From contig JAQGDQ010000388.1 in NCBI GenBank assembly GCA_030141605.1, positions 157,075-221,074 on the forward strand: 64,000 bases of DNA. Reading direction: 5' to 3'. The stretch comes from Tubiluchus corallicola (Eukaryota > Priapulida > Priapulimorpha > Priapulimorphida > Tubiluchidae). Both the position numbers and the translations under genes were made by a program. Of this stretch, positions 45 through 64,000 are shown piece by piece; positions within the stretch are counted from its first letter, which is position 1; each line of letters begins with the position of its first letter. The notes beneath the pieces were generated by a model. The model worked only from the letters and a program-made list of their open reading frames with translations. It did not search any database and was not told the origin of the DNA.

Positions 45-3000
45 CTAAACAAAAATGCAAAACAGCTTTAATTAGCTGTGAAATAAAAGAAAAACATTCG
101 GTTTTTCTTTGTCTTCCTTTGAATGCAATTTAGACCAAATCTACTTTAAATTATCTATTGTTGTCTATTAATTTTCTATTTTTATGCATAATGTTTCTGC
201 CATAGGTAATAAAGTACAGTACCATAAACGTAATGGTATGGTGAATGACAAGAAATTGTATGAGTGCAGATCAGATTCATTTAAAATTGGGTTTTATTTG
301 GTTTCGAAATTTGATCACTTTGCAACTGACATGCAACTTCTCGTCGTGTAGGGTTGTGAACCCTGAACAGACAAAAGTGCAGATTAAATAAACTGAAAAA
401 AAATGGCACAAACATGCATATACAACTCAGCACCGAACATAACATATACTATATATTAATGTCGGTGTTATAGGACATTATATATATATGTATAAGATTC
501 AAGGCTACAGCTCCGAGAATGGTACCATTTTCAGCGATCTATATATCAAACAAATGGTCTCCATCCATGTCATTTTATTGATGGTATATTTTTCGAATTC
601 CGCCCAACGGGAGGAAAGGGAGCAAAAAATTTCCCAAAACCGCAAAACTTGTACACTATTTCTGGAGAGTAGGCAATTAATTGAAGCACATAATTACTAA
701 ATTTTGGTTCTTCTCAGTATTTGAACCGATCAGCACTAACTACTACCCAAGTTTAAATCGTACAAAGGATCTGCGTTACTAACATTATTTTGAACACGAT
801 TTTGCAGTTAATTCTGTAATTTAAGTTGCATCTTCCACCGTTTGATCTATGAAACTAATTACTAATGTTTTTGCTATCTTTACTCCAGATTTAATTTTCA
901 ATTTGAACCTCTAAAAACAGATCAGAGGCAGTTTTGAAAAAGCTATTAAAATTAAACGTATGAAACAAAGTTCTAGGTCTTGCATGAAAAGCAATATGTA
1001 CTTCCTGACAAAAAGATGACTTTCACCTGCATTTTCCTTATATGGATGCTGATCGTGCATTTGTGATTTACGCTGTTCCTCCTCGGACTCGCTACTTTCG
1101 TCCTGCAAAAATTGAACGGTGACACCAGTTTTGCTAAAATCTAGTGCAATAATGAAGGACAATAAAATCTACAACCTACAGTTTAGAATTATCGTGATAT
1201 GCAAGAAAGGATTCTGTACTTCTTGTATAGGATTTCACATCTATATTCAGAGCAGGACAAAAAGCTTGTACATGATTAGCAGCGTGTGCTTTTTATCACT
1301 ATCAAAGAGGAAGAAAATCCAATTAAAAAGTGTACGTAATTGGGAAAGAAAATTCTTACTACCTTATAAAGTTTCCTGCCACCTGTGTGCCACTTATTCA
1401 CTAAAAACACATTATTGAGTTTATTGACAAAATAAAGTAATTTATACTTTTGCGTACCTAGCAAAGAGTGTGCTAGGAATGCTCTGAATCAGAGTTATTT
1501 AAACTTGTTTCAATCAACTTATCATTAAAATGGCTGCGTTTAAAGGTCATCGCTCGAGTATTACACAGCGTTACTGTTAATGCAAGCTCTGTATGAAAAA
1601 GGACAGCATGTAGGTGATACAATATTTAAAGCCGAGTGTATTAAGCTTTATTTATTAAAGGAAGACCGGACGATTGTTTAGACTCAATGTCATTTTAATT
1701 TACTCTTCAAAATATACATTTTCTTGCCCATAAAAGTTAGCAATTGTTTCTTATATTTGAATAATTAACTTAGAAAGTTAATTAACGGAAACCGAACACA
1801 GCTATTGCTTACGTGAGAAACTAACCACAGTTTGGGCAATGGCAGGCGTCTTCCCTTGTGCGTCAAGCACATTTGCATAGGTGTTACAGTACTGTTTAAA
1901 CGCATGATGTCAAAAAAATGGGCTCTACATCATATGACGTCAGAAACTAACGCTGCAGTTCATGATCATGGTTCTATTTGTCGGCCACACGAATGTGACA
2001 AAAAGGCGCCACTGCCAATATTAGCAGATTCACTGAGCCGCGCGTAGCTTTGAAAGTTTAACGAAATTTGAGTATACGAGGTAATTTTTATTTAATCTAA
2101 GTCCATGTGCTGGAAAAAAAACAGCCATTGATTGACTTTGACACACAATGCTTTGCAATGCAGAAAACGAATTAAAGAAGATTGTATAGAAAGTTTAGAG
2201 AGCCTAAAACGCTTTATCATCAGTCACACAGTTTTGGATGACTACCCCTGATTCACACATCCGCAATGTCAGCATGCAGAACTATTATAACACTGCTTCT
2301 GCACAATTATGTCGTGCTCAGCAATACATATTTCTGGTAGTGCAAAATCTGCATCATTATGATGTGTGAATATCTGCATCTATGATGTGTGAACCATAGT
2401 AAGACGTGTGAAGCAACAGAAATTCACAACATCAAGTTCTAAATTACAAGATGACAGTTCCTAGAAATAATTTATCATCATGACATCATAGGCATCTAAT
2501 TATTACCCTTGCAAATTAAACGATTTTTGGTATAAGGAACATAGTTTTAGCTAACATGCCATAAACAATTCATCGAAAGGCCATGAGCATATAAAAAGAT
2601 TTTAACATAAATTAATAGGTAGCCTTTTGAATAAAAACAATTCCAAGTGATTCTGGGTGTTACAAGCAATGTAGAATAAATGCAGTAACTCTCGTATATT
2701 TTAAAATCTGCCTAGTTTGTTTTTTCACCATTTGTCAGAATTCCCAGAAGATTTTGATAAAAATTCTACCACAAACAGTACTATCATTAATTATGGTCTT
2801 TCGAATCTGCATGGTACAAGACTGAGGGTAAGACATTGTTGTGCAGCTGTTGCTTTACCATGAAAATCAATGTGTGATTACTTGCATATTAGTGTTAGAA
2901 ATTATGTAATACTTCATTTTGAGCTTCAGCTAAAGAAGATTTAGCAAGGCACTCTCTCGTGACAGTAGTAGATGGCATTTTGTTCATATCTGCCACAACT

Positions 3001-6000
3001 TCATTTTCCCTTCCTTGAGCACAGAGTGTGAAATAATGATTCAGCAATTCCGAGGTCTGCAAAAAATATTTTGGGTTTAAATGCATTAGAAGGTGCCACC
3101 ATTAAATCATTTAGTATTTAATTGTAAGCTTAGGTAAAATAGCATCACATACTGATTTGGTTCAAACACAAGCATTTAGTATCAACTATCAACCAAGTGC
3201 TGCTGAAGATTACCGTATTTTCCCATGTATAAGAGACCCTTGTGTATAAGAGACCCCTTCAATTTTTAGGCAAAAATTCTGGAAAAAAGTTTTTTGGTAA
3301 TGAATAACTTTATTCATCATAGAAATCATTAAATTCCTCATCACTCTCATCAAAAATATCAACTGGAGTCAGACCTTTTAGTTTGAAATTTGCAGGATAA
3401 GAAGCACGTTTTTTAATTTCGGGCATTGCTTACAATAGCTTCATAGTCGAACGCGACACGCCTTCCTTAGGCTGACTCATCTCGTTGACCTCTGCCGACG
3501 TATCAATGATGTCGACGGGCATGCAGAGAGCTTATGCAGATGCGTTGATTGGCTGCAGAACAATCGATTTCTCTCCAATACCAAAGAGACATTTAAAAAA
3601 ATAATAACTTACCCGGTACATTAATTTTATCATTAGAATTTAGCCATGGAGAAGATTTATTGAAAGGAAACTATAATTATTCGAAATAAAACAGTTGTAG
3701 AGCACTTATTTCTTTAAAATCATTAGTGTAAAATGCATCTTATTGAAAAGACTTACTCCCATGTATAAGAGACCCCCTATTTTTAAAGTGAAAATTCTGA
3801 TCAAAAAAGGGTCTCTTATACACGGGAAAATACGGTACATGCCTCCATATCTTTAATTTTTGCCCATAATACAGCTTTATTTTAAGGCTGACAAACTGTG
3901 CAAAAAAGCAACCGCGAACAAGAAAACAAGTCCAGATGATGAGGAAACATAGTTCACCTGATATAAAGTGCCATCTTCTATCACAGTGTCAAACTCATTG
4001 TTGAGAATTTCTGCTATAAAATATTCCACTTCATGTGGTTCCAGATTATCTGAAAATAAATATTGTATTATGCAGCAGGCAACAAAGCACGCACAATCTT
4101 GATCATATGTTTCCATACACGATGCATGTCATGAACGTGGAACTTTTCTTGGAAACTGGTATTAAAGCTGACGCACAAGAAGGCAGCTGGTAGACTAATT
4201 TCCTACAAAGAAAGCCATCATTTCCCAACAAAAAACCTGATTCAACACATTTAACTACATCATTAAAAATATGCCAGAAACAAAAATATTCCCAAACAAA
4301 CAAAACAATACATAAATCAATATCTCCACAACCTTAGGTACAGTAGTGTAATACTGATCACATCTCGTTGATAATAAACGTGTGATCAACAGCACCCAGT
4401 CAATAAGTCGTGACCATTAACACTACAAGATTAGTTGAAACACCAAGTACTTTTAGAAACTAAAAGTGTACATTATGTAGGAATTGAGGCGTAACTTGGA
4501 AGTTACATAAATACGTAAATAATATTAATATTATGCTACCGTTTTCCTGAAAAAAATGGTACACTGCATCGATCATCCATACTGCTTTGTCCTTGCTGTA
4601 AACTCCACCAAATCCTTGCTCCACTGCCATCTGGAAAGGATTCACAAATTTTTGTATGCAAATTGTATACATGCATGGAGAAACAAAATTGAGTGTCCAA
4701 CAATTCGTGGTAAAATTGACCACTTGGCACAAATTATGAGAAGTGAGGCTGGAATAAAACTTTTAATGAGCAAATCTCTTAGTAAATATTTGGTATCAAT
4801 TTTACTATTGTTCAAAACTGATATAACTATATCACATATATATTGTATATATATATATATAATATATTGGTCCATACATGATACACAATTTCAAGACAAA
4901 TCTTTTAGTCTTGAAATTATTTAAATAAAGGGTTTTCTTGTCCTTTAAGTACCTAGTCCTAGACAATTCTCCTGTATTAAGGTAACAAGAGCAGTTTCAT
5001 TCTACAACACTCATTAATTAGGCCTAATCACTTCACCACCACGTGTGTGTGCAAAGGTGTACCGTAGATTTTATTTCCTTCATGAGCTTTTGTTTATGTA
5101 GATATACATTCACAAAAAGAAAAACACAGGTTTTGACCCAAATTAAAAATTCAAGATGGCCACCTTGACCATTTTATGATGAATCATTTAGAATTTATAA
5201 TACTGAACATATTTATGCTATGGAAACAACAAAATAAAATTTAAGTTGTTATGGATAAGAAAAATATACTTCTAGTATATTCAAAATGGCTGCCAAACAA
5301 CTTTATTAACTAGGTTACTACATTATAACATTTTATAACACTTATAATATGCATCTCATAATTTCACCTCAACACAAAATCATAATTTCACATAAGCAAA
5401 AAGCTACAGGCCCAAAAGAGGCCTACTAACAGTTTCGACTTATATAGGACTAAAACAAAAATATATTGATTCTGATAAAATCTTCTTAGAAGTAAAACCT
5501 AAACGTATGCGTGCAAAGATCCTATACAAGCCCAAAGATCGTGTAAACCCTTGTACAAGAACAACAATGCCTCTATAAATTGCTTTCTTTATAGCTACAA
5601 ATCTCAAAACCTACTTTCGAGAACACTTAGAAATATAGGCATATAGCTTGAGAAAGGTGAGAGCACGTGCATATGCAGCAAAACCCCGAAGTGGTCTTGC
5701 CATTGACAGCTGAGTACTGGGGATACTGGTCTGCAGAGTACTCACTATATGAAAATTAATTTTGTGTCTATGTATTATCAGTAATTTCGCTGGCATGTCA
5801 GATAACTGCTTAAGGCAAGCTGAATTGAGTGATTTGAATGATGTACAAACAGACTCGTCCAACTACTACTGATAAGTTTTTAGGAGTCTCGTTACTTTGC
5901 AACTCTGCGTGATTGAGTGACTGATTATATTTTGGTGTAAAATTTAAAATGTTATACGATAAGCCTACAGTAATTAAAAGACAATTTCATGTACTAGCAC

Positions 6001-6538
6001 GAATAGCAGTAACAGACAATACAACATTACCGACCTGTACGTTTCATTATTGACAAGTTATAATAGTCATAAGCAGTTGCAAAAACAGCCACAGCAACTA
6101 TAATGAAGGTACCTTCAATATAAATAACCATGATGATGGAATCTGACCAAATCACTGTTAAGTGTTATAACAATACTGCCTAAACAGTTAGTAGGTAAGA
6201 ATAACAATTAGTATTGGAGTACCTCAGATATCACATTATTAGCTATTTACAAAAATGATAAAATTCTGCATCAACTAAGCATTATTATTACGACCCATCA
6301 TACTTCACTAGTACTAGTAAGTGGTAGTACATAAGTGTTAAGTAAATAAAATAAGAACAGAAAAGATAGCCAATCACGATAGCAAGATAAAATTAATATA
6401 ACAACATGCAGACACTGCACAAACACGGTGCAGAACATATTCGTTCAATAAAAGTATTTGTACCTGTAAGGCAGGCCAACAATCGAAGACTTTTTCGATA
6501 GCATCGTGAAATACTCGACTAGAACTGGTGGCTGCCAT
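1..6538 (-). CDS. TSR2: TSR2, pre-rRNA processing protein (six exons, 3' end outside window)
   Basis: Exons in transcription order: 6464-6538, 4540-4630, 3958-4049, 2913-3056, 1027-1102, 1-44. All joins are GT/AG and phase-compatible, giving about 174 residues. TSR2 is a small nuclear protein that chaperones ribosomal protein eS26 and acts in 20S pre-rRNA processing. The family signature is clear: a WPALQ motif followed by AVEQGFGG, then a conserved block ending NEFDTVIEDGTLYQ, then an acidic tail. The start is the ATG at 6538 (MAATSSSR), in a good context (A at -3, G at +4) and giving the family's usual short N-terminus. An upstream in-frame ATG would add an unconserved extension. The basic C-terminal end of the family lies beyond position 1. 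The introns hold a pogo-like element and two dispersed repeats. Family assignment is from recognised motifs; expression is inferred. Confidence 0.88.
481..700. repeat. dispersed repeat R1, copy 1 (degraded)
   Basis: Lies in the last visible TSR2 intron. It matches 22670-22860 (same orientation) over the gattc-ggctacag...tatatatcaaac...cgaat...cccaacggga stretch. The short open frame here is this repeat and not a gene. Class unknown. Confidence 0.55.
1027..1102 (-). CDS. TSR2: TSR2 exon 5 (acidic linker)
   Basis: Acceptor tttgcag, donor gtgaaa. It begins DESSESEEEQRKSQ, typical of the acidic stretch of TSR2. It ends one base into a codon that exon 6 completes to Asp. Confidence 0.75.
1330..1660. 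repeat. dispersed repeat R2, 3' part
   Basis: Similar to 23770-24040 and 59030-59290. Shared landmarks are the ttattgacaaaat...cagtaattta stretch, aaacttgtttcaa, aaaatggctgc and aaaggtcatcg. Lies in a TSR2 intron. Confidence 0.55.
1661..2912. other. TSR2 intron sequence with nothing recognised
   Basis: AT-rich intron. The open frame at 1832-2047 has no recognisable domain, and I see no splice or family support for it. Confidence 0.5.
2913..3056 (-). CDS. TSR2: TSR2 exon 4
   Basis: Forty-eight codons, acceptor ttttgcag, donor gtatta, phase 0 at both ends. The helical content (LLNHYFTLCAQG...) corresponds to the region after the EDGS-like block in TSR2. Confidence 0.78.
3213..3835 (-). mobile_element. 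pogo-like (Tc1/mariner superfamily) element, internally deleted
   Basis: About 29-bp terminal inverted repeats (CCGTATTTTCCCATGTATAA at the left, its near complement ending at 3835), flanked by TA on both sides (3211-3212 and 3836-3837), as expected for a TA target. Inside, on the minus strand at about 3308-3420, is a transposase C-terminal remnant reading FKLKGLTPVDIFDESDEEF and then a stop, an acidic tail typical of pogo-like transposases. The catalytic part is absent. Sits in a TSR2 intron. Confidence 0.72.
3958..4049 (-). CDS. TSR2: TSR2 exon 3
   Basis: Acceptor ttttcag, donor gtgaac. It encodes NEFDTVIEDGTLYQ at its end, the most conserved block of the family, preceded by an acidic helix (LEPHEVEYF). 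Confidence 0.88.
4540..4630 (-). CDS. TSR2: TSR2 exon 2
   Basis: Acceptor tttccag, then MAVEQGFGGVYSKDKAVW and on to FFQEN; donor gtagca. It carries the family's A-V-E-x-G-F-G-G motif and ends with one base into a codon, matched by exon 3. Confidence 0.88.
4631..6463. other. TSR2 intron 1, no recognised content
   Basis: AT-rich, about 1.8 kb. A short (AT)n run at about 4847-4866. Minor open frames without family resemblance. Confidence 0.5.
6464..6538 (-). CDS. TSR2: TSR2 exon 1 (start codon)
   Basis: Twenty-five codons from ATG to ...DCWPALQ, then a gtacaa donor. The WPALQ motif marks the start of the TSR2 core. Confidence 0.85.
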
Positions 6539-7029
6539 ATTGTGCAACAAAAACAATATGGGACAACTTATTTGTCGTGTAAAGTCTCTGCACTCTCTAA
6601 TCTCTATCACTTTGTCATTGATAGCTTCTGGTTTCTGTAAACTGGCCTGTTTCACTCATTTATTTTTATTTTAATTATAAATTACAAAAATAATCATTGT
6701 TATAAAAATGGTTTCCATGCATTTAGACATAAATACATGATTTCTCGCTTTGTAAACGATGAATAATGGACACTGCAATTCCGATTAACTTGCTATAGTG
6801 ATTAGTAAGGTTGTAGACGTCAGACCTGATATAAATTAAATTAAAATAAAAACATAAAATGACGATCCACAAACAAATACTGACTCATTGACTACTGACT
6901 AACTGGCTCACTGACTGGCTTTGACCATCAGAAAACAATGAGCTACACCAAGTCATCGTAACTATACTACTACAGCGCATTTATTACACAAGCTGCGCGT
7001 TTTGGCTGTTCTACAACCTTTGTTGCTGT
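6539..7029. other. region upstream of TSR2
   Basis: Should hold the TSR2 promoter, but I see no confident core element. No other gene is recognisable here. Confidence 0.35.
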
Positions 7030-7490: not shown

Positions 7491-7628
7491 GAATTTAGTG
7501 CATGTCGTGCACAGTTGCACAGTAATAATAGCCGGGTGCTAGTTCTAGTAGTCAAGTCTTATGTCAAGATAAATCTTTTATCATTTCGTTGGATACATAA
7601 ATTTGCCTTTAAATGTCACCAACGTGAC

Positions 7629-8569
7629 TGTAACGTGCCGAGGGTTATTTGGTTTAAAACAAAATAACTACTGCCACTATTGTAACGTTTTGTAACCTAT
7701 AACGCTATTACATTCCTAATTTTTATATAACGATCAGGAAAATATACCACATGTATTTTCACGGGTTCGTCTGCTGTTTTTTTAAGGCTGTTTAGTTAAA
7801 AACAAAACAAGATGAAACAAATTTTAAAGCTATAATTATTACAAAAGAAGAGTATAACAACAAGTCAACAATAAGAGCTCAAAAATTACTATTAGTGGCT
7901 TGCTGTGAAAACCCCCAAGGAAAGATGAGGATAGGAAAATGAATGCGCATAACTTATCTGAATGTTCATGACGATGTTGTGCACAACTTGACGATCGTCC
8001 CACAATGACAACGCTGACGCCGGCAATATGACAATCCTCCATGAGCCATAACAATGCAGATGACGACAGCTAATCCACAGCATCCAGCAACCCTCTTGTA
8101 GTCTACAACACGAACGTACCAACAGCTGACTGGAATGGAATAACATCACACTTCTGTGGCTTGACCAGCTCTTCAAACCATGCAACAGCAACGAGACTGA
8201 GAAAGACAGGCTATACAACAGGAACACTGTCCTTTTGGCCAAAACAACACTTAGCTCAGCTCTCCATGGTAAAGAAGTTACATCACAGATCGTGTACCAG
8301 CCTTTCCAGACGAATACGTTAACTACAGGTATACTGGAACATGCCCACTGGTCAGACCAACAACTAAAGTCTGTACCAGTGAAAAATATCAACTCAACTG
8401 TCCAGAACAGGTATTTCTTTTTCTGCATAAGCAAACGAAGCACTCCAACAGGTAAGTACAAACCATTTTAACTGACAGGGGTGAGGAGATGATGAAATTG
8501 AAAGAACACATACAGCAATGCAAGCCAAGCAAGCCATTTACTATCAAAATTAGCAACATGCACCTCACA
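7629..8569 (-). repeat. 3' LTR
   Basis: Matches 14078-15016 along its whole length. In element orientation it begins TGTGAGGTGC and ends CACGTTACA, a TG...CA LTR. Confidence 0.88.
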
Positions 8570-8581
8570 ATACCCCCCTCC
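8570..8581 (-). promoter_or_regulatory. polypurine tract
   Basis: On the minus strand GGAGGGGGGTAT directly abuts the first base of the 3' LTR, where plus-strand DNA synthesis is primed. Confidence 0.7.
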
Positions 8582-9099
8582 AAGTAAACTCGGATATCTG
8601 AAATTTTCAAATGAAGTTCCGAGTACAATAGATCATTTAGCAAACAATACACACAAAAAACATTATCAAAATGACACAATAACATAATTAGCAAAATGTC
8701 ACAATCAAAATGATCAACAAAATATCATAATAATCAACACGTTTAGCGAACTTGCATAAAAATATGCAGCTCATTGATCATATACAACATGTTAAGCAAT
8801 ACTACTAAAAGAACAAACCAGCACAGTTAGCAAAAACAATCTAAAAGGAAGAGAATTCGGCCGTTAACTCATCAACCTTTCAATCCATCCTGGGAAAACC
8901 AAAGCAGGCCTAACAAAATAATTATGCAAAAACAACAATAGAGCACAAATGGCAAAATGATCATACACTGTGCATAAATAATATTTGATTCAAAACATAC
9001 AAATCAACATTAGCCAAAAAATTAAGCAAATCTCTGAGGGAAATACTATGCATTCATTAACGCTTTTTAGAAAAGGTTTTCCTTTAACTTAGGAAATCT
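8582..9099. other. 3' non-coding interior of the gypsy element
   Basis: AT-rich stretch between the RNase H stop and the purine tract. No frame or motif seen. Confidence 0.6.
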
Positions 9100-9564
9100 T
9101 TAGAACCTGGAGAGCGCATCAGCTACTCTGTTATCAGTACCTTTAACAGATTCAACTCTGTAGCTATATTCGCTCAAAATAAGGCTCCATCTACATAACC
9201 TACGATTATTTCTTTTGATTTTTGGCAAAGCCAATAGAGAACGCTGATCCGTTCTCAATACAAAAGTAACTGCTTCAAGATAAAATTTCAATTTTTCGAT
9301 ACAAAAAATTATTGCAAGCAGCTCTATTTCAACTGCGCTGTAGTTGCGCTCAGCAGGAGTCAGTTTACGACTGACATACATGATTGGGACTTCTCCTAAG
9401 TCACCCTGAATCTGGGATAGTACACCCCCAAGGCCAATCAGACTTGCATCTGTGGTTAGTATGAATTCTAGGGAAAAGTCTGGAGAGTGAAGTACAGAGT
9501 CAGATGTTATAGCATCACGTAAAGCAACAAAACTCTCCTCACACGCATCATCCCATTCGACTTA
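9100..9564 (-). pseudogene. gypsy RT tail plus RNase H remnant
   Basis: From EWDDACEESF to a stop after VADALSRF. The block TTDASLIGLGGVLSQ and the later SRKLTPAERNYSAVE and LRTDQRS are the standard gypsy RNase H series (Asp, Glu, Asp). It is in a different frame from the upstream polyprotein and begins where that frame ends. The RT palm with its YxDD box is missing, so this piece cannot be expressed as a normal Pol. Confidence 0.82.
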
Positions 9565-12500
9565 CTGTACGCACCTCTTCTAAAGACTGTGTAGCCACAG
9601 CTAAGGGGGGAAAAGCATAATCAGGAAGTTGTCCAACCTCAGAAGGACTGAGTTCCCTATCATACACAAGAACTTCATTGTTATCAGGGTTACTGCCTAC
9701 ACACACATCACAAATGTCATCATCATCAGTGACAGCAGAACTAAAACAACATTGACTAACACGACCATTATAGAGAATTAACTGCTCCTCACGATCATGG
9801 TAAGGTTTCAACAAGTTAATATGGAATGATCGAATTTTTCTCTTTCTGCCTGTTCCACCCATATCAATTTTGTAGTTCACATCTGATATCTTATCGGTTA
9901 CAACATAGGGACCTCTATGACCACGATTAAGTTTACCAGGTTTTGCTGGTTTAAGAAGCATGACTTTCTGGCCAACCTCTAGAGTTCGTGCACTAGCCAT
10001 ATTATTAAACCATTTCTCTTGAGCTATTTTAGCATCATGTAAGGCAGAATGGGCATTATCTGTTGCCTCTTGAATTGAGTTTATAATTTTACTAACGTAT
10101 TCATCAATTGATTCAGTATTGGCAGGAAGTGCAAATCCCTGTGTTTCTCTGTAAGCAGCAAGGGGACCACGTACTTTGAATCCAAAAACAAGCTCATTTG
10201 GTGAATAACCAAGACTTTCTTGCACAACTTCTCTATATGCAAACAACAGCATTGGAATCATTTCATCCCAAGGAATAGGGTGCTTTTCATGCAAGAGTTT
10301 CAAGATTGAATGTTTCAAAGTTTGATTATAACGCTCTACCAAACCATTAGCTTGAGCATGATATGGGCTGGTTGTAATACCTTTGACACCAAGTGTTTTT
10401 TCCAGATCTCTAAGCATCTGGGATGTAAACTGGGTACCTTTGTCAGTAATAATCTGTCTTGGGATACCATACCGACTGATGAACTGAAGTAAAGCTTTTA
10501 CAACTGTGGTCGTTTCAATATTAGAAAGAGGATAGCAATCCGGATACCTTGTAGCATGGTCAACAATTACTAATGCGTACCGATTGCCACTAGGTGTCCG
10601 AGAAGTGCCTAAGGGTCCAATAAGGTCCATACCAATAGTGTGAAATGGAACTGAAGGGATTGGAAGGGGTCTTAATCTAGCACGTTCAGAAGTTTTTACA
10701 CGTGAAGACTTTTGACAAGGAAGGCAAGTTTTGCAGTATTGCTGCACAGTGCGCTTCAGGTGAGGCCAGGTATATTCTGCCAAAATTCGGTGTAAAGTTT
10801 TCTTTACTCCCATGTGACCAGCTAATGGATTATCATGGGCCAAGTGCAAAATTTCACGACGTCTACATTTAGGTACTACCAATAACTCATGTGGTGTATC
10901 ACCACGTCGCTCACGACCCAAGTAAAATAGCACATCGTCACGTATGTAATACCCTTTACCAACAGCTTGTGCCTCAGCTTCCGTACCAGCACGATCACGG
11001 ATATTACGTAAAGATATATCGTCCTTTTGTTCCTGTATGAGTTTTTGCCTATTAGATTCTAGAAGCTTCTGATAATCCAAAGTGTTTTTTTCTACTTGAT
11101 GAGAATGGGGTGCAGCATCCATTTGGAGTTTATCTTCAAGCTCCCTTTCACGCCTTGTTTCAGCTTCTATGCGTGCTATTTGAGACCTTGTTGCAACATA
11201 GGTAGGCTGTGGATTTCGGCCCATGGAAACAGACTGCCCAGGATCTGACTCGGATACAGATTGATCACAGAGTAGAGCATCAGGCAATTTATTTGAAGAA
11301 CTAGGAAAAGGTTCATAAGCTGTTTCGATATCATTACCAAGAAGCAAGAATGGGATCGGGGCAGTGTTAGAAATGCACACAGTTAACCAACCAGAAATAC
11401 GGTCACTCTCTACAACTACTTTGGCAAGTTGGTAGCTTTTAACATCACCATGTATGCATCGTATTTTAGCGGAAGTGCCTGGTATTGTTTGTCTTGGATG
11501 AACAAACTTAGAATGCAAAATGGACATATGTGCACCACTGTCTCTTTGGCATGTAAGGTCATAACCATTGACACGAACAGGGAAACAAAATGGTTTAGTA
11601 TGTGCAGGTATTTTGTTATCATCATTTACACATTGATCAGAGGAGCTAATGGAATCAGTATTCTCTCTTATACCCACATATTGGCGAGCTGCTCTATCAG
11701 GTTGTTTCTCTAATGTAGGTTTGTTTTTAGAATAATTTTTATTCTGAAGAGGCTCACTCCTACTCTGAGGAAACTTTGCTTGAGCACAGTCAGCCCTTCT
11801 ATGGCCCCAAAGGCCACAAGTAAAACAACGAATATTACTGTCGGAACCTTTAATAAAAGTATTTGTATTTTGTTTATTGTCACCATTTTTCTCTTGAAAT
11901 TGCAAGCCTTTGGCTCTATACTGGTTTCTGAAAGAAAATATCTTGTTACTCCTAGCTGCCAAATAACGGTCAGCACATTCAGCCATATGTTCATAGCTGC
12001 CCTGTTCAATAGTACGCAAATGAATGGACATTTCCGGGGGCATAGAATTAAAAATCTGTTCAAGAGCAATCTGTTGGACAACCAACTTGAGAGTGTTTGC
12101 TCCAACAGCATTGAGCCAGTCATGAGCACATTTTTCCACTCTCACAAAGAACTGCCTGTAAGTTTCATCAGGTTGGCGTTTTAAAGTACGGAATCTTTCT
12201 CGGTAAGTGTCACTACTTAAAACATAAGTGTCAATCAAGGCTTTCTTAACAAAACCATAGTTTCGCATTTCAGACACTGGACATTGCTGATAACATATTG
12301 CAGCACGACCTGATAAACTCGGTGCTAGGTTTGCCATATAATCAGTTTCATTAATACCATTGCTTATCATAGCTGCTTCAAAATACTCGAGATAAGAATG
12401 GATCGAATCTTTTGCTTCAGAAAAATTCCGAATCTTTACACGAGGGAGTCTGGAGGACTGTGCACTATCAAGTGCATTAGTGGAAGTAGCAGAAGGACCA

Positions 12501-13168
12501 AGAGCTGCCGACTGGTGGCGTGCTCTTTCACAGTTCAATTGTGCCACAGCGATCCTTTCTTGTGCCTGCAACAGCTGAATCATAACATCTTTTCTGTCTT
12601 TTTCTGGTACCATAGAAACCTCTTTTAAAGTTGGTAACTGAATGGGCGATTGACCTGTTGAGGACAGTTCTTGGTGTTTGGAAACACCCTGTACATTTTC
12701 ATGTGATGTGGTCTGGACGAAAGAAGGACCTAGCCCGCCAGCAACATTTGACAACAACGCTGCTGGGTTAGAAAATTGTGAAGTTGGTAGAAGCCATGGC
12801 TGTTCAAAGCCAGAGCCCTCAACTTGTTGAGTGACACCCTCCATATCATTAGTGTTAACAGTTAAACCTTCTGGTTTCAACACCTTACTGCGAACTGATT
12901 GCTCCGACACAACAGTAGATTCATCTTTACTCTCTGTTGTAACTTGTTCATCAACATTTAAAGTTTGGCCAATAGCTGCATTGTTAGGTAAAGCATCACC
13001 ATTATTCATATTCTCTGTGGTTTGATGTCCTAAAACTCTATGTATCATGTCATCTTTTAATGTGGAAGTTGGAACTTTGTCCCCATATTCCTTTAATATT
13101 TCTTGTAATTCAGATTTTGTAAAACTAGACAATTCTTCTAATGTGTATTGTTTGATTTTCCCTGACAT
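9548..13168 (-). CDS. gypsy Gag-protease-integrase polyprotein (1206 aa)
   Basis: One uninterrupted frame. Residues about 1-45 form a short helical N-terminus; about 240-410 is the capsid-like region. A CCHC zinc knuckle lies at C448-C451-H456-C461. The aspartic protease has D-S-G at 543-545. Integrase follows: the zinc-binding region with H778, H785, C815 and C818, then catalytic D848, D909 and E945 (35 residues between the last two), then a GPY-type motif near GHRGPYVV. No reverse transcriptase lies between protease and integrase. The stop comes where the RT region should begin. Acts in particle formation and integration. The frame is intact but the element lacks RT, so it could only move with help. 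Confidence 0.88.
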   Translation of the reverse strand: MSGKIKQYTLEELSSFTKSELQEILKEYGDKVPTSTLKDDMIHRVLGHQTTENMNNGDALPNNAAIGQTLNVDEQVTTESKDESTVVSEQSVRSKVLKPEGLTVNTNDMEGVTQQVEGSGFEQPWLLPTSQFSNPAALLSNVAGGLGPSFVQTTSHENVQGVSKHQELSSTGQSPIQLPTLKEVSMVPEKDRKDVMIQLLQAQERIAVAQLNCERARHQSAALGPSATSTNALDSAQSSRLPRVKIRNFSEAKDSIHSYLEYFEAAMISNGINETDYMANLAPSLSGRAAICYQQCPVSEMRNYGFVKKALIDTYVLSSDTYRERFRTLKRQPDETYRQFFVRVEKCAHDWLNAVGANTLKLVVQQIALEQIFNSMPPEMSIHLRTIEQGSYEHMAECADRYLAARSNKIFSFRNQYRAKGLQFQEKNGDNKQNTNTFIKGSDSNIRCFTCGLWGHRRADCAQAKFPQSRSEPLQNKNYSKNKPTLEKQPDRAARQYVGIRENTDSISSSDQCVNDDNKIPAHTKPFCFPVRVNGYDLTCQRDSGAHMSILHSKFVHPRQTIPGTSAKIRCIHGDVKSYQLAKVVVESDRISGWLTVCISNTAPIPFLLLGNDIETAYEPFPSSSNKLPDALLCDQSVSESDPGQSVSMGRNPQPTYVATRSQIARIEAETRRERELEDKLQMDAAPHSHQVEKNTLDYQKLLESNRQKLIQEQKDDISLRNIRDRAGTEAEAQAVGKGYYIRDDVLFYLGRERRGDTPHELLVVPKCRRREILHLAHDNPLAGHMGVKKTLHRILAEYTWPHLKRTVQQYCKTCLPCQKSSRVKTSERARLRPLPIPSVPFHTIGMDLIGPLGTSRTPSGNRYALVIVDHATRYPDCYPLSNIETTTVVKALLQFISRYGIPRQIITDKGTQFTSQMLRDLEKTLGVKGITTSPYHAQANGLVERYNQTLKHSILKLLHEKHPIPWDEMIPMLLFAYREVVQESLGYSPNELVFGFKVRGPLAAYRETQGFALPANTESIDEYVSKIINSIQEATDNAHSALHDAKIAQEKWFNNMASARTLEVGQKVMLLKPAKPGKLNRGHRGPYVVTDKISDVNYKIDMGGTGRKRKIRSFHINLLKPYHDREEQLILYNGRVSQCCFSSAVTDDDDICDVCVGSNPDNNEVLVYDRELSPSEVGQLPDYAFPPLAVATQSLEEVRTVSRMG

Positions 13169-14058
13169 ATTTATACTTGTACCATAGATTCAATATTTCA
13201 AATTGAAAAGAAAATTGTAAAATTTTTTGTAAATTTTTTCCCACCTTGTACAAGTTTAATTTTATGTAATTAAATTTTCGAGCCACCCTGTACTATGATA
13301 ATTAAAGTCGCACATTTGTTTATATATCGAGTTTGTGGACCACCCTGTACAAATCTATTACTGATAAAATGTGATCACCCTGTAAAGTTTCTTAGCAGGC
13401 AAATGTGGGCCACCCTGATCAAATTTATTACATTTAAAATGTGACCAACCTGTAAACGTTTTAGCAGGTGAATTGCGAACCAACTGTACTAGTTTACACT
13501 TGATTTGTGTTCAGGGTAATTTGCTTTAAGCAGCTGTGTAAAGCTCTACATAAACCAAAACATTTTAAATTATTATTGCACACGGTTATCAGTCTATACA
13601 AGAGCTCGGTTATTTCTCAGCAAACTGTAAAGTCAAGGTTAACGGCTGTGAAATTATTCTGAGAATTCTATCCCACAGCGCATAGCATATAACGTACAAC
13701 GCTGTTGAATAAAGAGCTTCCGTTAGTTGGAAAAATTTTCCACTCTTGAGTTTAAACTGTATACAGGTATTGGCAACTACCAGAAAATCAATGCTAATAT
13801 TAACGTGAAAACACCCCTATAAAAATATTACAGCTCAATCTAGCTGTTGAATTACCGTGCGCTCTTCATGTCTTCGAAAATGGGTCAACGCAGGTACAAG
13901 TCTGCTTATGAACGACCACACAATTTAAATAAACTGGCTTCTTTACACCAAACAGAAAGTATCACATTAGGGGAAATAATTATCTGATGAAAATATAACA
14001 AATTAGCAACATGAAGTGTTTACACTAAACACCTAAAAAAACTAGTGAGCAGATTTCT
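13169..14058 (-). other. gypsy 5' leader with an internal degenerate repeat
   Basis: Non-coding leader between the primer-binding site and the gag start. At 13240-13500 a degenerate unit containing ccaccctgtacaa and aaaatgtgaccaccctgtaaa recurs about four times at 60-80 bp spacing. Confidence 0.55.
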
Positions 14059-14076
14059 CCTAAAACGCTGCCACCA
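14059..14076 (-). promoter_or_regulatory. primer-binding-site candidate
   Basis: One base inside the 5' LTR, minus strand reads TGGTGGCAGCGTTTTAGG. TGG fits the CCA end of a tRNA. I cannot name the tRNA. Confidence 0.55.
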
Positions 14077-14077
14077 T

Positions 14078-15016
14078 TGTAACGTGCCGAGGGTTATTTG
14101 GTTTAAAACAAAATAACTACTGCCACTATTGTAACGTTTTGTAACCTATAACGCTATTACATTCCTAATTTTTATATAACGATCAGGAAAATATACCACA
14201 TGTATTTTCACGGGTTCGTCTGCTGTTTTTTTAAGGCTGTTTAGTTAAAAACAAAACAAGATGAAACATAAATTTTAAAGCTATAATTATTACAAAAGAA
14301 GAGTACAACAACAAGTCAACAATAAGAGCTCAAAATTACTATTAGTGGCTTGCTGTGAAAGCCCCCAAGGAAAGAAGAGGATAGGAAAAATGAATGCGCA
14401 TAACTTATCTGAATGTTCATGACGACGTTGTGCACAACTTGACGATCGTCCCACAATGACAACGCCGACGCCGGCAACATGACAATCCTCCATGAGCCAT
14501 AACAATGCAGATGACGATAGCTAATCCACAGCATCCAGCAACCCTCTTGTAGTCTACAACACGAACGTACCAACAGCTGACTGGAATGGAATAACATCAC
14601 ACTTCTGTGGCTTGACCAGCTCTTCAAACCATGCAACAGCAACAAGACTGAGAAAGACAGGCTATACAACAGGAACACTGTCCTTTTGGCCAAAACAACA
14701 CAGCTCAGCTCTCCATGGTAAAGAAGTTACACCACAGATCGTGTACCAGCCTTTCCAGACGAATACGTTAACTACAGGTATACTGGAACATGCCCACTGG
14801 TCAGATCAACAACTAACGTCTGTACCAGTGAAAAGTATCCACTCAACTGTCCAGAACAGGTATTGCTTTTTCTGCATAAGCAAACGAAGCACTCCAACAG
14901 GTAAGTACAAACCATTTTAAGTGACAGGGGTGAGGAGATGATGAAATGAAAGAACACATACAGCAGTGCAAGCCAAGCAAGCCATTTACTATCAAAATTA
15001 GCAACACGCACCTCAC
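14078..15016 (-). repeat. 5' LTR
   Basis: Pairs with 7629-8569. The outermost expected T of TGTGAGG is altered or lost at 15017, where the LTR abuts a truncated MITE copy. Confidence 0.86.
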
Positions 15017-15474: not shown

Positions 15475-58246
<42,772 letters not shown>

Positions 58247-58360: not shown

Positions 58361-58752
58361 ATTCAACCCACTGAGACGACCCATTATGTATCTGTTCAAC
58401 CCACTGAGACGACCCATTATGTAACTGTTCAACCCACTGAGATGACCCATTATGTATCTGTTCAACCCACTGAGACGACCCATTATGTAACTGTTCAACC
58501 CACTGAGATGACCCATTATGTAACTGTTCAACCCACTGAGACGACCCATTATGTAACTGTTCAACCCACTGAGATGACCCATTATGTAACTGTTCAAACT
58601 ACTGAGATGACCCATTATGTAACTGTTCAAACTACTGAGATGACCCATTATGTAACTGTTCAAACTACTGAGATGACCCATTATGTAACTGTTCAAACTA
58701 CTGAGATGACCCATTATGTAACTGTTCAAACTACTGAGATGACCCATTATGC
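58361..58752 (+). repeat. 33-bp minisatellite V, plus-oriented array (12 units)
   Basis: Unit gttcaacccactgagacgac + ccattatgtatct, with a ttcaaactactgagatgacc variant at the right. The same family, inverted, is at 62905-64000. Confidence 0.96.
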
Positions 58753-59345
58753 ACATATCGTATTCGCTTTGAAAGGAATTTCCGTTTGTTTTCATTTTAA
58801 ATCTCCCGCAATACTGTTCCGACGGCGCCATTACATGATGTCACTACGACACGTAAATCAGGGGAAGAAAAGGAAATGTTATATTATGACACAAAAAACG
58901 TTCCATGCAAATCTATATTACTTAGCGTTTCACTTACCTGCTGGAAAGACTTATGTAACCAGACTGATAAATTAAAATGTTTGTGCCAATTGGTAAAATG
59001 TCACTGACTCACCCTCCAGGGTGCGCCACTCACTAGCCAAAAACGCATTTTAAATCTTATTGACAAGAAACAGTAATTTAAAATTTTACTTAATTAGCAA
59101 CATGTATGCTACGAATGCTCTAATTATTTTTTCACACTTTACAAAATGTTATCAAAACTTGTTTCAAACGACCTATTATTAAAATGGCTGCGCCTAAGGG
59201 TCATCCTGGGAGTTTAAATTTACACGTTTTATACAGCGTTACGGCTGATGCAGGCCATGCATACGATAAGAAGTATGTAAGTGGTATAAAATTTTAAGAT
59301 GAATTTTTTAAGGTTTATATAAGTGGAGGGTTTTCGTGTGCTTTA
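58753..59345. repeat. dispersed repeat R2, copy abutting minisatellite V
   Basis: Begins in mid-element (catatcgtattcgctttgaa) exactly where the minisatellite stops. Otherwise parallel to 23455-24075. Confidence 0.65.
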
Positions 59346-59582
59346 AATTAAGCACAAGATTTGTTACACTTGCACCCAAGTGATGTGAATTTTCTATCCT
59401 GTTTGTAGAAAAGTATCAACAAAAGTTTATTCTAATTTATTTCAACAGCTTCAAGTCTCTATTTTGTTTCCATTTGAGATGTTGCGTCTGAAAATTTGCT
59501 GTTTTTGTGATGCTAATTGATTGTTAAGCATCTTTTGCGACTCGTATTGTTATTTTGGTTATTTTTAGCTGATGTTTTTCAG

Positions 59583-59719
59583 GCACTGTGAGTTCTTACG
59601 AACTAGACTGTACTGACAACAGTGGCGACACCTTTCAGCAAACGTTCGAGGTAGGAGACGAAGCTGTCACGAAACACAATGAGGCAACAGATTCAATTTG
59701 TGTCTTTCTCGATGGATTG
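59583..59719 (+). CDS. PKD-region exon A
   Basis: Acceptor tttttcag, donor gtacgt. TVSSYELDCTDNSGDTFQQT and on to CVFLDGL; the only open frame. Needs one base from an upstream exon. Confidence 0.75.
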
Positions 59720-62700
59720 GTACGTCACTGGGTCACTTAGTGCATCACATTTTTTTATTAATCCAGTATGGGTTCCAACATTGACAATTTTTCCATTCTC
59801 TTATAAAGGACAAGAAAAGGGGCTCCTGAAGTACATTTCAGAAAAATCGCCATAAAAAATTATATTACTTTATAGCAATTTTAAGCATATATCGTATTAA
59901 CGTTGAAAGGATTTTTTGTTTGTTTACATTTTAACTCTCCTGCAATACTGTTCCAACTGCGCCATTACATGACGTCACCTACACAAACAGAAATCGTGGA
60001 AAAAATCTTAAATTATGTTCCAAAAGACTTTCCATGCAAATCTATATTAATTTGCATTACTCTGATCTAGACTACGGCCAAATAATGTTGAAAACACCGG
60101 TTCTCGCCTGATCACCAAAGTTAAGCAATATAGAGCCTGGTTAGTACTTGGATGGGTGACCGCCTAGGAATACCAGGTGCTGTAGGCTTGCGGGATGGCC
60201 ACACTATATCTCGACACTAGGCGGAGGAGTTGCACAAGAGCCAACGGCTAGAGGGCGGAAGCGGTCAAGTGGAGGGGTTTTTGTGTTTTAAACAATAGCT
60301 GGTAAGCCATTGTACACGTGGATGCCGTTAAATTTTTCTAGGTTGGAGAAATTCAATGCCAGCTTATCGTGTCTAATCCGCTGCAAAACATTGTGATTGA
60401 TCCAGCCTGGAGCGAGCACGTCCAGCTCATATTCCACGTAAAGCAAGCTGCTGGAAGTTGTCACATTGTCGACGATGGAGCCGTCGTAAATGACGGTAGG
60501 AATTCTTATTCTTTATGAAAACCAATGTAAAAATTGGTCCTAGAAATGCGTTAACCAAAAAGGCTATGCTAAGTGCGAGCACATGTCTTTAGGTTGTACT
60601 GAAGCATATCGCAAAGCAGCGGCCGACCAGCAAGTGGCACCTGGCAATTGTTAGTATATGTAGTTTGTACTAGAGAGAAAAGAATTATGTAATAAATGTG
60701 AAAAAGGAAAAGTAAGGTAGGTCAGTAAGAACAGGATAGCGCTAAAAAACAGTTTGGAGAAAGAAGGTCATGGGAGTAGGTTTACATATTATAGTTTTAG
60801 TTTTTTGAGAGGTGATTATATTCTCATTTTTGCAGGAGTGTAATTATAATCATAAAATAGTTTGTATTAATGGAGAGAAATTTTGTATACGTATAGTTAT
60901 AATATTTTTCAAGGAATATGTTATGAAAGGAGTAAGGAAGACAAAAAACAAATACAAATACAGGTTTTTGGAGTCATCAGGAGGAACTTGGGAGTCGAGT
61001 TTCGGCTGCTTATTATTGGTCACTTCCTTATTATTGTCACTGCCAGCGGACACCGCTGTAGCCATAAAAACCACCACTGTCATTATATCGTTATATACAT
61101 ACTAATTTATTTAATAAGACTTTTTTAAGAGTTAAAGTTTCACAGAAACATGTGACACAACTGTCATTATATCGTTATGAACATTCCTAATTTATTTAAT
61201 AAGCTTTTTAAGGGTAAGACTTTCACAGAAACATGTGACTACAGTTTATCGTCCTTTAATTAGATCGATACTGGAACGCACCAACTCGGCATTAAGTTTC
61301 AAATTTGAAGTTTCCACTGTGCTTAATAAGTTCACTCAATGCATATTCACTCAAATATGTGTGCTACATCACAACTGAACCACATCAGAACTGAGAGGTA
61401 CAGGACCTGTGTTTGTACAATTTTCGTCATCTCCAAGTTGCAGGTGCTAATGCCCATGTCCATCCTGCATGTCCATGACACAGTCCAGGGATTACACCAT
61501 AAGTAACTCAACACTTATTGTTATGGTGGTCCAGATTGTTATTACCCGCATGTTACTTTGATAAACTCGCGTGATTGATCGAAAAACCAGCGGTAACGTT
61601 TTGTAAGTCTTTGGTGCGACTCGGTCGGGAGTTGAACCTATGACCGCCTGGGTGGGAAGCCAGCACACTACTATCGTGCTATACCAAACCAACTTATCTA
61701 AATGTTCAGATGAAGTTTGTCAAAGGTTTCTCTGGTCAATCTGAGAACAAGATAACAGACTTTGCTATTTGTTGTCTAAACATGACCCTCGTGAATCCGG
61801 CAGTGGTTAGCAACTGATGAACGCTTTTGTATTACAGGTGAACCAAAGTCAATAGGATTCGCGTGTGATGAGTACGGTTCTGGAAGCTGCGCTTGCTATG
61901 ATTGGGGTGACAGGTACCAGGAGTGCTATGGTTTAAAAGAAGACTGCCTTCAGAATCTTTTTGCTCAGCCAACAGGTGGATTGTCAAGTAAACGGAAGAA
62001 AAGAGAGACGGCTAGTACGTGTTTTATTTTTTTAAGTTGTTGTGAAATTGTTTTTATTCTGTCGTCTAAGTTCAAGTTGAAGCTAAAGTTCAAGTTCAAG
62101 TTTACGTTTTAGTTCAACTGCAAGTGCAAGTTCATGTTTAGGTTCATGTTCAAGTTTATGTTTATGTCCATGTTCATGTTCGAGTTCGAGTTCATGCTCA
62201 AGTTCATCTTCAAGTTCATCTTCGAGTTCATCTTCAAATTCAAGTTTAAGTTCATGTTCTTACATTCAGGTTCATGTTCATGTTCTTCAGTTCAAGTTCA
62301 TGTTGATAAGTTCAAGTTTAAATTCATGTTCTTCAGTTCAAGTTTAAGTTCATGTTCTTCAGTTCAAGTTCAAGTTCATGTTTTTAAGTTCAAGTTTAAG
62401 TTCATTACCTTATAATCTCCACTGTCTATAAGGTAATATTCTAGTGGGCTGTACATTGCGCGATAATAAAAGCCGGCAATTTATAAAAACTGACTGTTGC
62501 TACAAAACATTAAATCAAAAAGGTTTGAAATTTTATCAAACAGTTACAAGTAAAACTGAGAAATGTTTAAATTTATGTAAGTTATAAGTTAGAGATTTTC
62601 CATTTTTTCCACAGTGTTTAATGATCCGGTTTTGCACGACACTCCACTCAATGGTACCCTTGATTCAGCGCACATTTATACCGATCCGGGAAAGTACGAC

Positions 62701-62787
62701 GTAAAGCTGTGCCTGTGGAACTCTGTTTCATCCGTGTGCAAAACTCAATCCGTGGTCACTGGTGTATCTGACTGCAACCTTCCTCAA
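59583..62787 (+). CDS. PKD-repeat region exons, four exons, probably the inverted 5' part of the receptor
   Basis: Exons 59583-59719, 60342-60495, 61838-62014 and 62615-62787, GT/AG and in phase (641 bases, about 213 residues). A PKD-type fold is indicated by VSNPLQ, then YDWGD, then HIYTDPGKYDVKLCLWNSVS, the H-x-Y-x-x-x-G-x-Y-x-V strand of PKD domains. An insertion between the WGD and the strand carries SKRKKRET, a basic furin-like site. The first exon begins at an acceptor, so more coding sequence lies upstream; the last ends in phase 0 after CNLPQ, exactly the phase of the REJ exon at 58109-58246 on the other strand. Bounded by inverted copies of one minisatellite. Alternatively it is a separate gene continuing past 64 kb. 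Confidence 0.83.
59812..60060. repeat. dispersed repeat R2, 5' half
   Basis: Head (ctcctgaagtacatttcaga...) to ttccatgcaaatctatatta. A tail-like piece ggaggggtttttgtgtttta is at 60273, on the far side of the 5S element. Confidence 0.6.
60070..60268 (+). mobile_element. 5S rRNA-like sequence with conserved 3' flank (SINE3-like)
   Basis: 60070-60188 reads as nearly complete 5S rRNA: tgttgaaaacaccggttctc, gatcaccaaagttaagcaat, and the C box ttggatgggtgaccgcc intact. The following 80 bases (ggcggaggagttgcacaaga and on) are shared with the minus copy at 40380-40475, so the unit is larger than 5S. No T-run terminator follows the 5S end. Confidence 0.75.
60342..60495 (+). CDS. PKD-region exon B
   Basis: Acceptor tttctag, donor gtagga. 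VGEIQCQLIVSNPLQNIVID and on to VQLIFHVKQAAGSC, alternating strands typical of PKD repeats. Confidence 0.8.
60500..61590. other. intron sequence, nothing recognised
   Basis: A short direct repeat (cattatatcgttat...aatttatttaataag) at 61080 and 61164. The frames at 60812-61128 lack any family resemblance. Confidence 0.4.
61590..61695 (-). mobile_element. second tRNA-derived SINE-like sequence
   Basis: Minus strand has tggtatagcacgatagtagt and then ggttcaactcccgaccga (a B box), followed by ccaaagact as in SINE S1. Could also be a decayed tRNA gene. Confidence 0.5.
61838..62014 (+). CDS. PKD-region exon C with basic cleavage-like site
   Basis: Acceptor attacag, donor gtacgt. FACDEYGSGSCACYDWGDRY, then LSSKRKKRETA. 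W-G-D is the PKD turn. Confidence 0.78.
62065..62412. repeat. (TTCAAG/TTCATG)n hexamer tract
   Basis: Degenerate hexanucleotide repeat in the intron between PKD exons C and D. Confidence 0.9.
62615..62787 (+). CDS. PKD-region exon D
   Basis: Acceptor ttccacag, donor gtgagt. HIYTDPGKYDVKLCLWNSVS, then CKTQSVVTGVSDC, the closing strands of a PKD domain. Confidence 0.85.
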
Positions 62788-62904
62788 GTGAGTACCTCCA
62801 TTAGGGCACGTTCAGACCGTCGCGAGGAGTTTTGTTCCTGACAACAGACTCGCAAATGTGAACTGCTTTTGACAAAGTTTTCAAGTTTCAAGCTGTTTGT
62901 ACTT

Positions 62905-64000
62905 CTGATAATAGGTCGTCTTAGTAGTTTGAACAGATACATAATGCATCGTCTCAGTGGGTTGAACAGTTACATAATGGGTCGTCTCAGTAGTTTGAAC
63001 AGATACATAAGGGGTCGTCTCAGTAGTTTGAACAGATATATAATGGGTCGTCTCAGTAGTTTGAACAGATACATAATAGGTCGTCTCAGTAGTTTGAACA
63101 GATACATAATAGGTCGTTTCATTGGGTTGAACAGATACATAATGGGTCGTTTCAGTGGGTTGAACAGATACATAATGGGTCGTTTCAGTGGGTTGAACAG
63201 ATACATAATGGGTCGTTTCAGTGGGTTGAACAGATACATAATGGGTCGTCCCAGTGGGTTGAACAGATACATAATGGGTCATCTCAGTAGTTTGAACAGA
63301 TACATAATGGGTCGTCTCAGTAGTTTGAACAGATACATAAGGGGTCGTCTCAGTAGTTTGAACAGATATATAATGGGTCGTCTCAGTAGTTTGAACAGAT
63401 ACATAATAGGTCGTCTCAGTAGTTTGAACAGATACATAATGGGTCGTCTCAGTAGTTTGAACAGATACATAATGGGTCGTCTCAGTAGTTTGAACAGATA
63501 CATAATGGGTCGTCTCAGTAGTTTGAACAGATACATAATGGGTCGCGTCAGTGGGTTGAACAGATACATAATGGGTCATCTCAGTAGTTTGAACAGTTAC
63601 ATAATGGGTCATCTCAGTAGTTTGAACAGTTACATAATGGGTCGTCTCAGTGGGTTGAACAGATACATAATGCATCGTCTCAGTGGGTTGAACAGTTACA
63701 TAATGGGTCGTCTCAGTAGTTTGAACAGATACATAATGGGTCGCGTCAGTGGGTTGAACAGATACATAATGGGTCATCTCAGTAGTTTGAACAGTTACAT
63801 AATGGGTCATCTCAGTGGGTTGAACAGTTACATAATGGGTCGTCTCAGTGGGTTGAACAGATACATAATGGGTCATCTCAGTGGGTTGAACAGTTACATA
63901 ATGGGTCGTCTCAGTGGGTTGAACAGATACATAATGGGTCGTCTCAGTGGGTTGAACAGATACATAATGGGTCATCTCAGTAGTTTGAACAGTTACATAA
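62905..64000 (-). repeat. 33-bp minisatellite V, inverted array (33 or more units), runs off the window
   Basis: Reverse complement of the 58361-58752 unit: agtgggttgaacagatacat + aatgggtcgtctc. The long minus frame (VQTTETTHYVS repeats) is an artefact of the 33-bp period. Confidence 0.96.

Follow-up and report, generated by a model that had tools for sequence, protein, structure and literature searches.

A probable polycystin-1/REJ-like gene on two contigs of Tubiluchus corallicola, with a second, inverted copy of four of its exons

The question raised by the locus

We have analyzed a window of 64,000 nucleotides (C2012:157075-221074; zero N) from an assembly of 343.5 Mb in 2344 contigs. Contig C2012 is 221074 bases long, and therefore window position 64000 is the end of the contig. 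Near this end lie four PKD-type exons on the plus strand, while the exons from the REJ-like region to the PLAT domain lie on the minus strand. An earlier note on this DNA had proposed that a single gene was split here by an inversion between two inverted minisatellite arrays, or else that the assembly had simply been flipped through the repeats. Do the two sets of exons belong to one protein, and if so, how did they come to stand on opposite strands?

The minus-strand exons

The minus-strand part of the gene consists of 26 exons running from 58246 down to 15475 (3741 nt, 1247 codons), which form a stop-free chain with matching phases. Exon borders were placed by eye and by script, without transcripts. 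The chain begins with exon m1 (58109-58246, phase 0-0), the start of the REJ-like region, and continues through 25 more minus-strand exons (m2-m24 plus m3a and m3b, 15475-54500) that cover the REJ-like region, a GPS-like sequence, one transmembrane (TM) segment placed by eye, and PLAT. A phase break between m3 and m4 was apparent only, as exons m3a (49557-49670) and m3b (47730-47863) restore the chain. Several introns of this gene harbour other long tandem arrays (35562-36666, 37876-39493, 17770-20096 and 55867-58002).

The gene is polycystin-type and REJ-like. The PLAT domain (PF01477), located after the first TM segment, was identified with an E value of 4.3e-17 (63.3 bits, cut-off 23), and the GPS domain (PF01825) scored 15.2 bits (E 0.031), below its cut-off of 22.5. 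The REJ model PF02010 gave no match at E <=1, including a search with m1-m15 containing both m3a and m3b (796 aa). A profile made from 45 homologues, with m as its only anchor, is matched by the first 260 residues of the m chain at E 6.5e-42; many of these 45 carry PF02010 according to the protein listing. We use the label REJ-like because the Pfam model is not reached but the match to the homologue profile is strong. When 44700-58246 was scanned with Pfam in two of its three minus frames, no match came out, probably because the exons are short.

The order of domains, PKD, REJ-like, GPS-like, one TM segment (by eye) and PLAT, is that of the PKD1/REJ family (SpREJ, human PKD1, PKDREJ and PKD1L1). 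The gene differs from this family in leaving PF02010 unmatched, in a GPS score below the cut-off, and in the channel domain, which was not found in the range searched: tblastn gave no match to the polycystin channel domain left of 15391 in the window (E <=0.01) and none in the next 40 kb, C2012:117075-157074 (E <=1e-3). The channel domain is absent from some members of the PKD1/REJ family. The gene may be a one-TM member or may continue further away; SpREJ proteins are reported to have between 1 and 11 TM segments (PMC1934368). Beyond the PLAT exon, the minus strand carries at ~7600-15000 an insertion with two similar end repeats, recognized by eye, which we take to be LTR-retroelement-like. 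Further downstream on the same strand (~2900-6560) there is a small gene that, we assume, resembles TSR2.

The plus-strand exons and their place in the protein

The four plus-strand exons are A (59583-59719), which opens with two bases of a split codon, B (60342-60495), C (61838-62014) and D (62615-62787), which ends in phase 0 at the end of the last PKD domain. All have AG/GT borders and their phases chain over 213 codons. Exon D alone matches PF00801 with E 6.5e-4 and 20.1 bits, below the Pfam cut-off of 23.5. Codon usage, with the m exons as training set, served to rank 90 candidates over both strands, A and D being shortened at their 3' borders. A came 2nd, D 3rd, B 5th and C 10th among the plus-strand candidates; the top plus-strand candidate is a CAT repeat. 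By codon use, an open stretch on the minus strand at 60962-61055 also looks coding (rank 17), and in its longer frame a signal-peptide-like start was seen by eye; it is probably due to chance.

Two separate alignments, one with exons A-D and one with the first 260 residues of the m chain, were made to 124 proteins collected in three protein searches, one of which found 801 proteins, with the best 120 listed; the first search had returned only two matches, both vertebrate PKD1L2. Both parts match 49 of the 124 proteins at E <=10 with the m match starting within its first 60 residues. For 14 proteins both best matches have E <=1e-3, and the positions they imply for the end of A-D and for the start of m are no more than 10 residues apart in 13 of these (exactly adjacent in 6) and 21 residues off in the remaining one. 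At E <=1, 28 of 42 proteins are within 10 residues, 3 are off by 18-21 and 11 by 210-1030; in these last 11, the A-D match lies further towards the front of the protein, presumably on a different PKD repeat.

The profile leads to the same placement, with A-D residue 213 at position 192 and m residue 1 at position 193 (extrapolated from residue 7). Joined, A-D and m score 214.5 bits, compared with 61.8 and 138.3 bits apart and 196.0 bits in the wrong order; the best scores of shuffled sequences (200 per part) were 6.6 and 5.4 bits. Of the 1375 open frames of >=25 codons in the window, the ones matching the profile are C and D on the plus strand and m1, m2 and m3a on the minus strand, and no others. 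C and D were also found between the arrays by tblastn with the 124 proteins, a search less sensitive than the profile. We place A-D directly before m1 because the end of D and the start of m1 map to neighbouring residues of the homologues. By these alignments, A-B-C-D followed by m1 is the right order for a single ancestral protein, without a gap between D and m1.

In these respects the earlier note had read the locus correctly: the coordinates, strand and phases of the four plus exons between the arrays hold, the REJ-to-PLAT side is on the minus strand and begins at 58109-58246, as the 26-exon chain confirms, D ends and the REJ exon starts in phase 0, and the order A-B-C-D then REJ exon agrees with both the homologue alignment and the profile.

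The front half of the gene on a second contig

Exon A has at least two matches in the 343.5-Mb assembly, one in the window and one on contig C233 (45506-45642). C233 is 49543 bp long; its positions 44670-49543 match the window from 58747 through A-D into the second minisatellite array, and it ends inside the same 33-bp array. On C233, exons A-D are open and uninterrupted and are in normal orientation, on the same strand as and directly after upstream PKD exons. The plus strand of C233 upstream of A contains PKD-type matches in rising homologue position, such as a PF00801 match at 27260-29092 (E 1.1e-10, 41.7 bits, cut-off 23.5). The exon that precedes A, exon Z (C233:42893-43043), ends one base into a codon (phase 1) and fits A. 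An upstream PKD exon ending in this manner had been sought by the earlier note, and it is found on C233. The C233 piece, A-D and the m exons follow in that order in 8 of 9 homologues, each of the nine having matches to A-D, to m1-3b and to one or both of two C233 pieces. One of the 8, and likewise the ninth, has its A-D match on an earlier stretch, and a weak one (E 0.028, 0.036).

The m1 region has one match in the assembly (a lower bound). C233 43000-44660 is matched over its full length by C233 alone; the 80 other rows are partial and confined to query positions 731-1053 and 1158-1604, which are dispersed repeats. This search scored the best 40 of 3245 candidates, so that copy counts in the assembly are lower bounds; a close second copy of C233 43000-44660 should have shown up among the candidates scored.

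Two unrelated genes were considered and rejected, as C233 completes C2012. Two inverted paralogous genes, with A-D in one and m1 onward in the other, would also have placed the end of D next to the start of m1, since conserved intron positions would likewise yield adjacent residues. A plus-strand tblastn match at 27650-27870 (E 5e-3, one of 124 proteins) might be counted in favour of such a pair but is probably chance. On the window's plus strand, C and D alone match the profile; the m1 region was found once; and C233, which stops in the same array, has the 5' part that C2012 lacks. We consider paralogous genes very improbable.

C233 shows the normal arrangement of the gene's front half elsewhere in the assembly, and we infer that C233 is physically joined to C2012 through the array. 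The gene would read from C233 through the array into C2012, both contigs ending inside the array of the D-m1 intron. C233 would supply the 5' half up to D, and C2012 would supply m1 to PLAT on the minus strand. The transcript would use exons A-D of C233 and splice D to m1 across the array; exons A-D of the window would make no contribution to the m1 transcript because they are inverted.

The arrays and the junction

The segment with A-D is flanked in the window by a 33-bp minisatellite in opposite orientations, as the earlier note had described. Array 1 (58362-58751, plus strand, 33 bp x 11.8) has 12 units, the final one partial, of types ABCBDBDEEEEF; array 2 (62908-64000, minus strand, x 33.1) reaches the contig end. 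Between them there is an exact inverted match of 170 bp (58362-58531 and 63787-63956), and the 390 bp of array 1 are 95.4% identical, ungapped, to 63956-63567. The unit run ABCBD is common to both arrays, and none of 20000 order shuffles reached a shared run of 5 types. A search of C233 for the array unit found 16 matches, every one of them at the contig end and none before exon A. The unit adjoining D is nearly the same on C233 as in the window, with an otherwise different unit order, which shows that the 33-bp array is fast-changing. The unit was not found in bacterial and archaeal genome contigs or in viral contigs, collections from which the window's own genome was possibly excluded, and our literature search found no paper that treats a minisatellite or tandem repeat at an inversion breakpoint together with non-allelic homologous recombination.

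The second copy of the repeat element and A-B-C-D occupies 58752-62904 of the window and matches C233 from 44675 onward. On C233 the repeat element before A continues uncut through AATTTTATGCACATATCG. At the window junction, the array unit CCCATTATG adjoins CACATATCG; the shared TTATG (58747-58751), common to the last array unit and the repeat element and uncut at C233:44670-44674, is a 5-bp microhomology. Array 1 joins the interior of the repeat element. Dispersed copies of the element at 58769-59346, 23526-24086 and 59815-60058 are ~75-80% alike, and it is the first of them that the array 1 junction cuts.

We reject an inversion that arose by recombination between two inverted arrays already in place, since C233 has no array before A and the junction homology is only 5 bp. 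The exon order and phases given in the earlier note stand, but its inversion between paired arrays does not, given the normal order on C233, and neither does a simple flip of the assembly, the segment being present twice and not once misoriented. An inversion, which would break the gene, is retained as one of three possible origins of the second copy, by another route than the paired arrays. On the grounds of order, phase and homology, together with the proposed physical join, we assign a probability of roughly 85% to a single polycystin-1/REJ-like gene spread over the two contigs, with A-D of the window as a second, inverted copy. This copy would begin inside the repeat element that precedes A, reach to the array following D, and be linked, in inverted orientation, to the array on the m1 side by the 5-bp microhomology.

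Origin of the inverted copy

Of 3064 aligned intron bases, 76 (2.5%) distinguish the window copy from C233, including 24 of 351 in a simple repeat. The exons differ at 9 of 641 bases (5 synonymous, 4 nonsynonymous), with no indels (one-sided Fisher P 0.06 for exons against introns). The 4 nonsynonymous differences compare with 12.4 expected if both copies were free to change (P 0.006) and with about 6.8-8.1 if one were (P 0.10-0.19), and neither copy has a stop or frameshift. Exon change between the two copies looks constrained, which is more in keeping with a pair of functional alleles than with a single dead copy, although not significantly so. Sequences similar to 5S rRNA occur within longer similar repeats at 60070-60188 (plus strand, 94.1 bits) and 40467-40587 (minus strand, 75.4 bits), the former also on C233 at 94%; they are probably 5S-derived SINEs.

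The divergence bears directly on a heterozygous inversion, in which one haplotype would be flipped between the interior of the repeat element and the interior of the array, breaking the gene there, and C233 would carry the standard form. Intron divergence of 2.5% together with constrained exons fits alleles, and the window end is the proximal half expected of such an inversion; gene-disrupting inversions are also known in humans (PMC6748972). Against this, one breakpoint alone is seen, and no second allele was found in the assembly for either m1 or the region before A, an outcome that would also be expected of an assembly that had been collapsed or purged. On balance we regard this origin as rather unlikely.

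A real inverted duplication within the D-m1 intron (A-D, array, inverted array, inverted D-A, array, m1) would leave the gene working and the extra copy as intron ballast. One locus would then explain why A-D is found twice and m1 and the unique sequence upstream of A once, and both contigs stop in the array, the would-be centre of a palindrome with ~5-kb arms. Such a dead copy should gather nonsynonymous change, and the low count above speaks against this, although not significantly; both copies are without stop or frameshift. We treat this duplication as a tentative possibility.

The third origin is a chimeric or foldback contig end, where a molecule or read would have switched strand, passing from the array on the m1 side to the segment that precedes A, and the assembler would have kept the result. 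A contig consensus normally rests on more than one read, which speaks against it; the second copy sits at the contig end, which speaks for it. Inverted orientation, a nearby partner ("local" here rests on the proposed C233-C2012 join), a short shared sequence and skipped sequence are the form of MDA chimeras, of which >85% are reported to be inverted with intervening deletions and >70% to have 2-21 nt of complementarity (PMC1855051). Foldbacks make up ~0.55-0.6% of nanopore genomic reads and are able to tangle assembly graphs, but the same source gives virtually none in PacBio HiFi and notes that Canu and Flye screen artefacts (PMC12870357). This origin is quite plausible, at somewhat less than even odds. 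The array unit history does not discriminate among the three origins, and any other origin is most improbable.

Relation to known rearrangements and implications

Human inversions between inverted repeats, some of which disrupt genes, resemble the window in that its segment is flanked by inverted repeats >90% identical (PMC3961182, PMC6748972). They differ in that the uninverted form on C233 has no array before A and that the homology at the junction is 5 bp; the human repeats range from 654 bp to 24.2 kb in the latter report (PMC6748972). In a flip/flop region of yeast chromosome XIV, a 4-kb near-identical inverted repeat re-inverts the region, so that two orientations can coexist (PMC9731477); for the region studied here, covered in one assembly, two orientations could coexist as well. 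The allele-like second copy in the window also resembles false duplications in assemblies (PMC9516828).

A striking gene break read from one contig can stem from the contig's end. The missing front half of this gene has been located on another contig, with the exon phase that had been predicted. If the inverted copy is not real, gene models from C2012 hold a false inverted four-exon copy. If it is real, the minisatellite in an intron of a polycystin-type gene is a site of strand-switch rearrangement. It is conceivable, if unlikely, that a real segregating inversion (the window being its proximal half) or a palindromic duplication arose by strand switching via microhomology in a hypervariable minisatellite; were this true, one chromosome would have the last PKD exons turned around beside those of the REJ side, and individuals would differ in their capacity to make the full ectodomain.
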